A stretch of 64,000 bases of DNA from Prosapia bicincta (lineage: Eukaryota; Arthropoda; Insecta; Hemiptera; Cercopidae), in contig JBAIZL010000006.1 of the NCBI GenBank assembly GCA_036971475.1, positions 7,108,501 to 7,172,500 of the forward strand, in the 5' to 3' direction. Each line of letters begins with the position of its first letter. Position 1 is the stretch's first letter. Positions 6,800 through 63,311 of this stretch are shown here, piece by piece. The notes under the pieces were generated by a model. It was not told the DNA's origin. It made no database searches and was given only the letters and a program-made list of their open reading frames with translations. The position numbers were made by a program, and so were the translations under genes.

Positions 6800-6998
6800 T
6801 ATATATCGTGATATTTCACATTGTCCATTATTTTTCTGTTGCACTGACTTTATGAAGTTACTACTATTAATCTAAACAATTTTTTACACAACTAAGTGCA
6901 ATAATTTTACTTTATGTGATGAGGCACCTTTCGGTCACTTGACGATTGTCGAATCACTGAATTAATTTTAACTATTTTTCTGGTGTCATTCGATCCGT
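6800..6998 (-). repeat. Family G PLE end, partial copy
   Basis: About 200 bases similar to 63165-63350, including CACTGACTTTATGAAGTTA and the block TTTCGGTCA...TTGTCGAATCACTGA. It runs straight into a (TA)n tract. On the - strand, 6914-6960 folds like a hammerhead: stem I GUGAU/AUCAC, core UCGACAA, GAAA, stem III AG(GUGC)CU, triplet CUC. Confidence 0.65.
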
Positions 6999-7054
6999 GA
7001 TATATATATATATATATATATATATATATATATATATATATATATATATATATA
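6999..7054. repeat. (TA)n microsatellite
   Basis: Uninterrupted TA repeat between a family G end and an inverted-repeat element. Confidence 0.95.
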
Positions 7055-7280
7055 GGAATTTTTGGACTAGATAGGAGACTGACAGACTTACCTAATGGCA
7101 ATAGTCCAAAACTGCAATCTCCTGGAAATAAATAAATAAACTTATCACACTATTGAAATATTTCAATAGTTGATAAGTTTTTTATATTTGTCTCTTTATT
7201 TATTTATTTCCATGAGATTGCAGTTTTGGACTAATGCCATTAGGTAAGTCTGTCAGTCTCCTATCTAGTCCAAAAATTCC
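7055..7280. repeat. Inverted-repeat (fold-back) element related to family A
   Basis: Arms begin GGAATTTTTGGACTAGATAG and end with the complement at 7280. They share GACTGACAGACTTACC with family A, while the middle carries another sequence (GATTGCAGTTTTGGACTA type). TA repeats lie on its left and a little beyond its right end. Confidence 0.8.
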
Positions 7281-7365
7281 TAAATAAGCTTTAAGATCTA
7301 CTAGAACTAACCTATATATATATATATATATATTTAGGTTAGTTTTGGTTGGTAAAGGTTATTTA

Positions 7366-7705
7366 GATTTTTTGGACTAGGAGACTGACAGACTTACCTC
7401 GGTAAGAGTCCTCTCTGTAGTATTGAAATAGAAACACATAAAAGCACTTAACCATTGATATATTTCAACCACACAGTGGTCTTTGTCAATCAAAGAGAAA
7501 ACACAAAAAGAAATATGAGAGAATGAAATAAAATAAATAAGATTTCATTCTCTCATATTTCTTTTTGTGTTTTCTCTTTGATTGACGAAGACCACTGTGT
7601 GGTTGAAATATATCATTGGTTAAGTGCTTTTATGTGTTTCTATTTCAAGACTACAGAGTGGACTCTTACCAAGGTAAGTCTATCAGTCTCCTAGTCCAAA
7701 AAATC
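7366..7705. repeat. Family A palindromic element, copy 1
   Basis: Nearly perfect palindrome with arms of about 164 bases (7366-7529 and 7542-7705), each running from GATTTTTTGGACTAGGAGAC inwards to ATTTCATTCTCTC. The arm equals the 3' terminal region of the PLE at 32.1-33.8 kb. It is embedded between TA repeats. The right arm contains TTGACGA followed by a hairpin (GACCAC-TGT-GTGGTT) and GAAA. Confidence 0.9.
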
Positions 7706-7710
7706 TATAT

Positions 7711-9295
7711 ATATATATATATATACTATAATATGTATTGTTGTGTATTAATAAAGAAATAAGACAATTTACAATTACAAGAATAATTTATTGAATTTAC
7801 AATATATATATGTGTGTGTGTTAGGGGAGTAATTATAAAAATTAGTATGGATTTTGAATATGATAGTTGTAAGTACTATTGTACTATGGAGAGAGAGTTA
7901 TTATTATTTAAGGTGTATGGTAAGGAATTTATAACTCTTAACATAATACTTAGGAGTAAAATATATAAGTTGAAAAATTATAAATTTAAAACATTAAATT
8001 AATAACTATGAAGCATTATGGTACTATAAATATTGATATAATTATTGATATTATAAAATATTTGGAACAATAAAAACAATAACCTAATAGTAATTTTTTG
8101 AGGCATAATTCGTTTTAAAGCGTGTTAATAAAATAATTGTATGCCCTGTTCCTAACTAAACTAAACAACAATCACTGAACTAAAAGTCTAATCCAAAGTA
8201 TTTATCAAAACAGTTCATTTTGTTATTAAAGTACAAATAAACACCACAAGACTGCTCTTTGAATAGGGGTGAGACTGAATTTATTTTAGTAAAAGCTTTT
8301 AATTAGAGATTCTACTATAAGGTGTATAAAATTAACAAAAGCAATCTGTTACCCCTCCCCCCCAAAGAGACAGTGCCATTATTTCTTAGATGAGAAACTC
8401 ATTCCATTAGTTGTTCATAACTTATTAGCATGAATTGATTGTAGTACTTAACAACTGTAGGAGCATAAACTTGTGTTTAGTTTCTTTGTTGTCCTTCTTT
8501 CCACTGATGATACTTCAGTCTCATGGTAAATTGAAGCTAAGAAAACACTTTTAGTGTTTTGCCATTTGAAGAACATAACACCATTGTATAAAGTTTGATT
8601 ATCTTAATTACCTTTTTGAGCTTCTCATCATCAAGAATGTCAGTAGGGAGTTCTTTTCTATTTGCATGAATTTTTCCAAGTGCCAGTGTCTTACCATTTT
8701 CTATCTTTCTAACAAGATAAAACTATCGTAATATCATTGATTCAATATCAGTATTTTCTACACTGTCTAAAGGCAAAAGTTTTTTATAAAATTGTGATTA
8801 TTTCCTTGCCTCTCATAAATAACTATTCAATTAAACTGAAAAATGATAGAAATTAAATCAAAATTCCTAAATACTGAAAACTAAAGACTAACAGTTTATA
8901 AACTGGCTTTAAATACTGATTATTAACAAAAACACACCATAATCTAAAATGGAAATAAGTTGTTAAAGTTAAATATGCTTGGTAGTCACAAGTACCACTT
9001 AAGTTTTTCAAAATTACTACATATTTTGACAATAAAAAGACTTTAATATTTACACTCACAAATCTTACTAGTATTTTTTTGAGTTAAATTAAGTTTTATT
9101 TCTCACAAGTTTGATTTTAATGAAAAGTTAGCCCTATTGTGTTCAAACGTTAACATATTAAAATTAAAGAGACTTATAACCAGAAATTTTATAAAAACTC
9201 TTGGGGTAAATAACAGTTTGAATTAGGCTTAACTTAATTCTGTAAGCTAATTCAAAAGACTTTCTTCTTAATTCCAAAAAAACATACTTATTTGT
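7711..9295. other. No recognised feature (intron)
   Basis: AT-rich DNA. The short ORFs at 7814-8002 and 8853-9059 have no recognisable content and low-complexity composition. Confidence 0.4.
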
Positions 9296-9440
9296 GCTGC
9301 CTTTTTGTTATCATAATATATATATATATATACTTAGGATTAGGTGCTGCCTTTTTGTTATCATAATATATATATATATATATATATATATATATATATA
9401 TATATATATATTTATATATATATATATACTTAGGATTAGG
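9296..9440. repeat. Tandem duplication with (TA)n
   Basis: The block GTGCTGCCTTTTTGTTATCA followed by TA repeats and ACTTAGGATTAGG occurs twice in a row; the second TA tract (about 9366-9427) is longer. Confidence 0.8.
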
Positions 9441-9463
9441 GCCATCTGTTAGATACATCAGTT

Positions 9464-61430: not shown

Positions 61431-61432
61431 TA

Positions 61433-62360
61433 TAGCAGTAATGTTTTATTGCATACTAGCAAAATAACTGACCCCTTTGCAGCCACTGGAGTATGTCAAC
61501 ACACTGTGCTCACCACATTCCATATATGTTAAAAGTACAACAATAGTTTGTTCTTCTTAGTGTCAAGTTGAGTTTTAAAACATTACTTTCAGATAGCTCT
61601 GCTTTGTTTCTCATTTGCTAAAATGGTTTTGTAAATCAAACCTCTCATTTCAAAATTGGCTCACTACTGTAATTATATTAAGTTTTTATATTTTGATAAT
61701 CACATTATCTTTGTTTATAATACATAATTACTAGTTTAAAATATATATTTATTATTAGTATTTTGATACAAAGTTTTCATTTAATAACATTTTTTATGAT
61801 TTATTAATTTTTTTTCAATAGTAAAATTAATTTCTCAAGATCTTTCACTTTATTTAAATCTTTTGCAGTGGGCTTTGCATTAATATGATGTTCTCATCAA
61901 GATTCAAAGACTAATTTACTTTTACTATAACCAGTTGAGCTTCATTGTCAAATCAAATAGTGGGAGACTTATCTATTTTCATATGAAAGAGGTCTGTTCC
62001 AGGAATGTACATTATTACCTGTTGCCTTTATCTTGATATTTGGTCTGTAGTTGAAGAAATGAGTGCCTTATTGGTAAGTTGTGATTAAAGTAACAGGAAG
62101 AATAGTTTGACAATTCTGTATCTTATTGCTTTTGCTGGTGATCTACCCATGTCTGTTGTTTACCAAAAGCTCTTCTGACCGTGAGGTTTTTTTTGAGAAC
62201 TTCTATACTTTGTCATACGAGATAGAACACTTGCTCATCTTGGGTCTAGGGTTGGAATGAATTTAAAATAATGCAATGATGTTGAGACTTAGTTGGCCGT
62301 TTTTGTTTTATGATGTGTCTTAGAATGTAGTAAAGGCAAAAGAGAGAAGAATCTTATTAG
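61433..62360. other. No recognised feature
   Basis: AT-rich sequence. Confidence 0.4.
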
Positions 62361-62364
62361 TATA

Positions 62365-62640
62365 TGTATTTCAGAAGTGAATAGCTTTGATTTGAGTTAG
62401 AATGTGTTTTAGTAATGAGGAGACAATTTAAAATCTCCAGGAGGAGATTGCTCTGGCAACCTCAAAACACCATCTAGTGGTTTCACTGCAGATCAGTGGC
62501 ATTAGATAAGTGTTTATGACAAATGTTTGCCTTTGATAACAATTAATAGCCAGAGACTATTATACTTTAATTTAAATTAAAAATATTAATAAGTTAAATT
62601 TAATGAAAATAAGTCCAATTTATTACTTGTGAATTTTGTT
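62365..62640 (+). repeat. Unnamed repeat, copy 2
   Basis: Inverted partner of 59240-59500 (AGACAATTTAAAATCTCC, CCATCTAGTGGTTTCACTGC, AAATAAGTCCAATTTATTA). Confidence 0.75.
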
Positions 62641-62879
62641 GTACATGATGATTGGTGAAATTTTAAAATACAACTTTATAAATAATTGCTTAACTTACAA
62701 TTTAAGTAATTTTATGAAAAACGTATTAAGGCATACATTTTTTAAATTACATTAAGCAACCTTCATCAATGCTTAGGCTACTGGAGACCTATGTTGATGT
62801 AGGGCAGCAGGGGTTTTAAAGACAAATTTTCCATATGGCCCAAAATGTAAGGTTTTTATAATTTGTTTTTTGTATTTGG

Positions 62880-62975
62880 TTTGTTAATTCAATATGTTTA
62901 TAAATTTCATATTGCTCGAGTGTGTTGAAAAGTACTTTTTTTGTTGATGAAGAGGATTCCTAGTTTCTGTTTGAT
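62880..62975 (-). pseudogene. PLE GIY-YIG tail fragment
   Basis: Matches 13900-13990 (TTCATATTG, GTGTGTTGA, TTTTTTGTTGATG), the coding part after the YIG motif. Confidence 0.6.
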
Positions 62976-63268
62976 AACCATTTAATTGTGGCCTATTTAT
63001 ATCATGTCGGCAGACAAACACTGGTAGCATATTTAATAGAATGTATTTGATTCTTGAATCTTTGTTAAAATCTGTCTCCTATTTGCCTCATTTAGAATTT
63101 GTTGTTTAAAATCTGTGTCCTGTTTGCCTCCTTTAGAATTGGTTGTAGTATATATATATTCTTGATATTTAACATTATCCATTGTTTTTCCGTTGCACTG
63201 ACTTTATGAAGTTAATATATTACTATGTGAGTAATTTTATCCACCATTAAGTGCAATATTTTACCTTG

Positions 63269-63311
63269 AGTGATGAGGCAACTTTCGGTCGTTGACCATT
63301 GTCGAATCACT
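63269..63311 (-). ncRNA. Hammerhead ribozyme-like motif, family G
   Basis: Stem I AGUGAU/AUCACU (6 bp perfect), core UCGACAA, one extra U, stem II GGUC(AAC)GACC, GAAA, stem III AG(UUGC)CU and triplet CUC. The copy at 6914-6960 keeps stems I and III (loop GUGC). Activity is untested; position 4 is C where hammerheads have U. Confidence 0.55.

Follow-up and report, generated by a model that had tools for sequence, protein, structure and literature searches.

Probable minimal hammerhead ribozymes with one nucleotide inserted after A9 in several families of Penelope-like elements of Prosapia bicincta

Introduction

A stretch of 64,000 nucleotides from the hemipteran Prosapia bicincta (Cercopidae; GenBank assembly GCA_036971475.1, contig JBAIZL010000006.1, positions 7,108,501 to 7,172,500 of the forward strand), called the window here and meaning the whole stretch, contains fold-back repeats of several families that share hammerhead-like motifs, and raises the question of whether these motifs are ribozymes, to which element they belong, and how unusual the single additional nucleotide at the base of their stem II is. 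A first-pass annotation, made from the letters of the window and a list of its open reading frames (ORFs), had noticed the motifs, linked them to Penelope-like elements (PLEs), and knew of no description of the additional nucleotide. Minimal type I PLE hammerheads were reportedly presented by Cervera and De la Pena in 2014 and by Lunse, Weinberg and Breaker in 2017. The comparisons below indicate that the motifs are very probably minimal type I hammerhead ribozymes of PLEs, in several families, which would most likely cleave as dimers. Statements about published systems rest on passages of the papers cited.

Results

All of the copies named in the first-pass annotation (families A, B, D, D2, E and G, and the 30.4-kb element, here family F) are present with the stems quoted for them, and in the alignment each has one extra nucleotide, either A or U, after A9 and ahead of stem II. 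Together with further matches to families A and B, the copies placed in the window include:

33588..33632, + strand: family A motif (core start 33594; core UUGACAA; extra A; stem II GACCAC/GUGGUU; stem III AUAUAU; stem I non-canonical)
7433-7509 (-), 7562-7638 (+), 17475-17551 (-), 18247-18323 (+), 48265-48341 (-), 48399-48475 (+): further family A matches
11320..11365, - strand: family B hammerhead motif (core start 11359; stem I UGAG/CUCA; core UUGACAA; extra U; stem II GGGA/UCCC; stem III ACGGCCGU; predicted cleavage after C)
20428..20473, - strand: second full copy of family B
10930-10981 (-), 24403-24460 (+), 26757-26825 (+), 51153-51208 (+), 53253-53298 (-): other family B matches
13729..13776, - strand: family D hammerhead motif (core start 13770; stem I AGACA/UGUCU; core CUGAUGA; extra A; stem II GAUCG/CGAUU; stem III AACGUU; predicted cleavage after C)
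12194..12233, + strand: family D2 hammerhead motif (core start 12200; core CUGAAGA; extra A; stem II GUC/GAC with GUAA loop; stem III AACGUU)
27815..27861, + strand: family E hammerhead motif (core start 27821; stem I GGCCCU/AGGGUU; core CUGAUGA; extra U; stem II GAUGAC/GUCAUC; stem III AUGUACAU; predicted cleavage after A)
30723..30767, + strand: family F hammerhead motif in the 30.4-kb element (core start 30729; core CUGAUGA; extra U; stem II GAUGAC/GUCAUU; stem III ACGCGU)
63269..63311, - strand: family G hammerhead motif (stem I AGUGAU/AUCACU; core UCGACAA; extra U; stem II GGUC/GACC)
6914-6957, - strand: second copy of family G

The layout is far more frequent in the window than chance would produce. 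A strict descriptor (CUGANGA or UUGANAA, then x nucleotides between A9 and stem II with x = 0-5, a stem II of at least 4 bp, a loop of 3-8 nucleotides, and GAAA) finds 12 matches, 11 of them at x = 1 (five in family A, two in B, one in D, two in E and E2 together, one in F), one at x = 2 (a family B copy), and none at other values of x. In 300 dinucleotide shuffles of the window the same descriptor finds 0.06-0.13 matches per x, with a maximum of two at x = 1, so that the excess at x = 1 is about 90-fold, a figure to be read as five independent families and not as eleven independent matches, and there is no excess at x = 0 or x = 3-5. D2, with its 3-bp stem II, and G, with its core UCGACAA, lie outside the strict descriptor by design; a relaxed scan recovered most of the named families and BLAST recovered D2. 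A non-overlapping BLAST count gives 27 motif-region matches in the window (A 7, B 7, D 3, D2 3, E and E2 4, F 1, G 2).

Elsewhere in the genome the same spacing predominates. Nine 10-kb stretches, taken at round-number positions on contigs with earlier matches (87,593 readable bases), were scanned with a laxer descriptor (GAA, loop 3-11) and yielded 17 matches, 15 at x = 1, one at x = 2 and one at x = 5, against 0.41-0.63 per x in their shuffles; the counts at x = 1 were 1, 3, 0, 1, 6, 0, 3, 0 and 1 per stretch. This density of about 1.6 per 10 kb extrapolates, with the shuffle mean subtracted, to roughly 3.6 x 10^5 motifs in the genome of 2.2 Gb (standard error near 1.5 x 10^5), an estimate that is rough because the motifs are clustered. 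Genome matches number at least 44 for family B, at least 45 for E and at least 59 for F, and in 94 motif rows from loci fetched with families B and E, x is 1 in 89, 2 in two, and 0, 3 and 4 in one row each.

For comparison across families we assembled 15 representatives: A, B, D, D2, E, E3, F30, F2, G, H, H2, I, J and two outgroup contigs, L061 and L062, with E and E3, H and H2, and F30 and F2 as related pairs. Base pairs were counted both by script and on the alignment. The core CUGANGA, or its U3-A8 variant, and GAA before A15.1 are present in all 15, which were picked for this. U3-A8 replaces C3-G8 in A, B, G and L061, the family A core being UUGACAA in 9 of 11 copies compared; the G representative, from locus L044, has UUGACAA, which is rarer in its family than UCGACAA. 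The extra nucleotide is A in seven representatives and U in eight; since the representatives were drawn mostly from x = 1 matches, its presence in 15/15 is partly by construction, and the unselected evidence for it is the strict scan of the window, the nine stretches and the outgroup contigs. One x = 1 match, L066:4266, with an extra G and a 6-bp stem II, was left out of the representatives because no stem I was visible in it; it is a chance match or a decayed copy. The representatives have A, C or U at H17, a count in which the script skipped G.

Stem I was no selection criterion. Its paired runs over the 15 representatives sum to 56, a value reached in 0 of 5000 permutations of the 3' flanks (mean 11.9, maximum 36), and 11 of the representatives have a run of at least four pairs. 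The misses are A (2), D2 (0) and F30 (1). Relatives account for the weak stem I of D2 and F: the D2 copy at 12200 is damaged, with A at position 2.1 where all three other copies covering the site have G, and this G restores stem I as GAGG/CCUC in two of the three, while F30 pairs more poorly than its relative L075:1601 (ACUCA/UGAGU). They do not account for A. When the boundaries were placed by eye in eight copies of the window, 32 of 40 stem I pairs were formed; mismatched families averaged 1.9 of 5. In stem II none of the 15 representatives has an unpaired position or more than one G-U, a property for which they were also picked; the stem is just 3 bp long in D2. Two further copies in the window have suffered: the second G copy (6957-6914) has lost its first stem II pair, and the left arm of the E fold-back has a 3-nucleotide deletion in the core.

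Where the first-pass annotation had read a stem III of 1-2 bp, the stretch from A15.1 to U16.1 is instead a self-complementary palindrome (G-U allowed) of 4-8 nucleotides in 14 of the 15 representatives, F2 being without a perfect one, and it is better read as a stem III that is probably intermolecular. The palindrome is 6 or 8 nucleotides long in 11/15; at 900 GAAA sites of the window a palindrome follows at 189, and one of 6 or 8 nucleotides at 87. For 8 of 14 representatives, minimum-energy co-folding of trimmed segments, a simple model that ignores the tertiary contacts of the core, predicts the intermolecular stem III. The motifs probably work in pairs. Palindromes in stem III/loop III are not without precedent, being mentioned in the legend of a supplementary figure (PMC3088659).

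The same annotation had taken the change of stem sequences between families as covariation. It is right that pairing is kept as the sequences change, but the stems of unrelated families are not homologous columns, so that this is covariation in an indirect sense only. Homologous covariation is found within the E group, in six sequences with shared flanks, where 91% of the cells of the hammerhead structure pair and compensatory changes occur in both stems: in stem II 100% of the cells pair and two pairs differ on both sides, and stem I has one such pair. With the partners slid by 1-3 columns, at most 49% of cells pair and at most one position is changed on both sides. None of 500 shuffles reaches the observed percentage paired, number of cells changed on both sides or covariation score; 34/500 reach the number of pairs changed on both sides and 175/500 the number of further pair types.

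These results bear on one alternative, that the motifs arose by chance or as a side effect of palindromic fold-back DNA. An AT-rich window with many inverted repeats would offer material for such matches, and nearly a tenth of its GAAA sites (the 87 of 900 above) carry a palindrome of 6 or 8 nucleotides. Against this stand the roughly 90-fold excess over shuffles at x = 1, the stem I pairing that no permutation reaches, and the presence of the motif in both outgroup PLE contigs described below, and we consider the explanation very improbable.

Motifs of families A, B, D and G lie near the remains of PLE genes, which in the window include:

32139..33381, + strand: remains of a PLE ORF with reverse transcriptase (RT) and GIY-YIG, upstream of the family A motif on the same strand
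25646..25942, + strand: GIY-YIG-like remnant (FYIGQTGRTF), with a family B motif downstream at 26757-26825 (+)
13770..14279, - strand: GIY-YIG-like PLE ORF of family D, whose stop codon is the UGA inside the hammerhead core
63310..63864, - strand: GIY-YIG-like PLE ORF of family G, with its UGA stop in the 5' strand of stem I

The family A ORF has matches below the Pfam cut-offs to RVT_1 (7.2e-06, 26.3 bits, cut-off 29.6) and to GIY-YIG (0.024). Its RT has 206 homologous proteins, and among 120 listed many carry RVT_1 and one GIY-YIG; a PDB search with it found no match. The B, D and G ORFs have no match to Pfam GIY-YIG; alignment places a YIG motif in them at 24, 22 and 26% identity to A, respectively, and tblastn also supports the relationship. 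Among the copies looked at, the stop codon of the PLE ORF lies in stem I in 4/4 of G and is the core UGA in 1/2 of D.

Linkage was scored as a same-strand PLE ORF match ending within 600 nucleotides 5' of the motif, and was found in A 2/11, B 20/52, D 4/12, G 5/9, D2 1/6, E 3/65 and H 1/15 copies. PLE matches anywhere in about 3 kb are more frequent (19/30 B, 7/30 E and 2/6 F loci), and these counts include neighbouring families (L044 counts toward G and L031 toward B), which is why we use the stricter count; in L076 two F motifs flank an RT match. The motifs of A, B, D and G are thus firmly tied to PLEs and those of the remaining families loosely, and the suggested link to PLEs is borne out. 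The linkage also bears on the possibility that the motifs belong to animal retrozymes, short non-autonomous tandem repeats that yield circular RNAs, and are not parts of PLEs. In favour of this, no ORF stands immediately 5' of the motif in many E, F and H copies, and retrozymes likewise have type I hammerheads with a weak stem III (PMC7229834, PMC7761336). The ORF-less tandem repeats of a few hundred bp that define a retrozyme are not what we find: the motifs of A, B, D and G stand directly 3' of PLE ORFs, and only 9 of 72 same-family neighbour pairs are in tandem. We regard a retrozyme origin as improbable, though less clearly so for E, F and H.

Outside the Prosapia bicincta genome, PLE proteins were looked for in viral contigs, where there were none, and two bacterial genome records, one of a mussel gill symbiont and one a Deltaproteobacteria metagenome-assembled genome, hold PLE contigs (L061, 1-3501; L062, 1-4168) that presumably come from an animal host or from contamination. 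A single strict motif at x = 1 with an extra A is present in each, L061 with the U3-A8 core, and in each the motif lies between ORF pieces that recur at both contig ends, consistent with a tandem array. Since two PLEs from other records have it, the extra nucleotide is not peculiar to the Prosapia bicincta genome.

Most same-family neighbour pairs are inverted, and these fold-backs were mapped in the window, itself AT-rich and rich in inverted repeats:

27639..27928: head-to-head fold-back of family E, one motif per arm
15214..15772: head-to-head fold-back of E2, motifs at 15671 (+) and 15315 (-)
17402..18396: truncated family A PLE, with a GIY-YIG remnant (17763-18178, -) between two head-to-head 3' ends and a motif on each
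13660..14652: head-to-head fold-back of family D, arms of 243 nucleotides, 95% complementary

The 72 same-family neighbour pairs comprise 58 head-to-head, 9 tandem and 5 tail-to-tail, counts in which a few places are represented twice (L001, L031 and L072 lie inside the window, and L034 and L037 overlap). Head-to-head has been described as the Penelope arrangement observed most often (PMC3846280), and both strands are cleaved and extended by a PLE protein from Anolis (PMC11167929). The fold-backs thus call for no explanation of their own: they are ordinary head-to-head insertions of PLEs and do not belong to the ribozyme. Other elements in the window are:

1060-4719, - strand: non-LTR (long terminal repeat) retrotransposon, a stop-free frame of 1220 amino acids with domains for endonuclease, reverse transcriptase and RNase H
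19203-19718, + strand, and 34480-35022, + strand: remnants of Mariner-type transposases (Transposase_1)

Discussion

From the arrangement of motif and ORFs a mechanism can be proposed. The motif would sit in the pseudo-LTR, 3' of one ORF and, where elements stand in tandem, 5' of the following one. Two copies on a tandem or multimeric transcript could pair through their self-complementary stem III of 4-8 nucleotides to form a double hammerhead, in which the 5' strand of stem I of one copy would pair with the 3' strand of the other, and the A or U that bulges out after A9, ahead of stem II, would be a regular part of the fold. Each copy would then cut after H17 (A, C or U), leaving unit-length RNAs with 2',3'-cyclic phosphate and 5'-OH ends. 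What the sequences show is the layout, the pairing, the palindromes, the compensatory changes in the E group, the PLE ORFs directly upstream in A, B, D and G and the tandem-like outgroup contigs; dimerization and cleavage of this kind, and a role in transposition, we infer. PLE hammerheads have been described as minimal, in tandem and possibly acting as dimers (PMC7761336, PMC6155905).

Several observations weigh against self-cleaving PLE ribozymes. First, Rfam 15 reports no hammerhead in the whole window at gathering score, nor any among 65 matches with E up to 10 in positions 6000-64000, and 16 of the 27 window matches fail the strict descriptor at x = 1, partly by design (D2, G). Second, no same-strand PLE ORF match ends within 600 nucleotides 5' of the motif in families F (0/12), I (0/3), J (0/1), E2 (0/3) and E3 (0/4). 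Third, co-folding does not form stem III in 6/14 representatives, does not keep both stem II hairpins in 9/14, and gives a complete double hammerhead in only 2/14 (B and H2). This last result, and direct ORF linkage in only part of the families, lower the probability that we assign to dimeric PLE ribozymes. Fourth, family G has the core change U4C in 7/9 copies, and family A has no canonical stem I in any of the 11 copies compared, a shifted pairing CGAU/AUUG being possible there at the cost of consuming U3. Finally, in head-to-head insertions the motif faces its own antisense, which may prevent folding.

Family A brings in another explanation, that the fold is real and conserved and serves mainly as a PLE protein-recognition or reverse-transcription element, self-cleavage being weak or dependent on the PLE protein. 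Without a canonical stem I, family A still keeps stem II and GAAA in 11/11 copies and UUGACAA in 9/11. The hammerhead of an Anolis PLE did not cleave without added PLE protein, and hammerhead mutants left insertion by this element in vitro unaffected (PMC11167929); because that hammerhead needed protein in order to cleave, assistance by a protein is a serious alternative. A plain binding hairpin would have no need of the core letters, the A15.1-U16.1 ends or the stem I beside H17, all of which are kept across families. We judge a mainly protein-recognizing element unlikely, though well ahead of chance or a retrozyme origin, and it overlaps with cleavage as a dimer, so that the two are not exclusive. 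Minimal hammerhead ribozymes of PLEs acting as dimers remain the explanation that we rank above chance, retrozymes and a pure binding element.

The motifs resemble several known systems. They share with PLE minimal type I hammerheads the site in the pseudo-LTR, a stem III hairpin that is short or absent, and possible dimers (PMC7761336, PMC6155905), and differ in belonging to new families in a large animal genome, with one nucleotide inserted after A9 in every family examined. They share with the newt and avocado sunblotch viroid (ASBVd) double hammerheads a stem III that is weak in the monomer and would be elongated in the dimer (PMC6155905), but in several of the unrelated families here it is a short palindrome. 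Hammerheads with a U3-A8 core are already published and have the same covarying pair as A, B, G and L061 (PMC3088659), although here U3-A8 is combined with an extra nucleotide after A9. The insertions recall those of Penelope elements in Adineta vaga, with inverted pseudo-LTRs and a head-to-head arrangement most frequent (PMC3846280), except that little is left of many copies here beyond a short fold-back, each arm of which carries one motif.

Contrary to the initial impression, the extra nucleotide has been described before. The plus-strand hammerhead of chrysanthemum chlorotic mottle viroid, CChMVd(+), has an additional A between A9 and G10.1 that moderately lowers its rate; changing this A to C or G is strongly detrimental, and changing it to U raises trans-cleavage 3-4-fold (PMC3705267), a pattern that fits the A or U found here. 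For that viroid ribozyme the extra base is presented as a deviation from the consensus, whereas here it is the rule. The reviewed passages, which did not cover the primary papers on PLE hammerheads, hold no discussion of its constancy across PLE families. Our counts suggest that one nucleotide after A9 is the rule and not the exception in PLE hammerheads. A more tentative possibility, somewhat less likely to be right than wrong, is that this bulge, for which only A or U is used, is under selection and sets PLE hammerheads apart, as a fixed hallmark, as a structural subclass; it would have been kept through the replacement of every stem and would offset the missing loop-loop contacts in ribozymes that cleave as palindromic dimers.

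What appears new, and as far as sequence evidence goes well supported, is the occurrence of the motif in several unrelated PLE families, with a constant insertion of one nucleotide and at high density; the kind of hammerhead was already known. For density, the axolotl genome has up to 120 000 retrozyme copies (PMC7229834), compared with the approximately 3.6 x 10^5 motifs of our rough extrapolation. The analysis adds several unrelated PLE families with sequence-supported hammerheads and provides a descriptor that picks out motifs missing from the Rfam 15 results for the window. Families with an extra U or an extra A, with stem I intact or not, make the role of this nucleotide directly testable. 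If the bulged A or U does prove to be a hallmark, it would be a general rule of PLE RNA processing that can be read from sequence.

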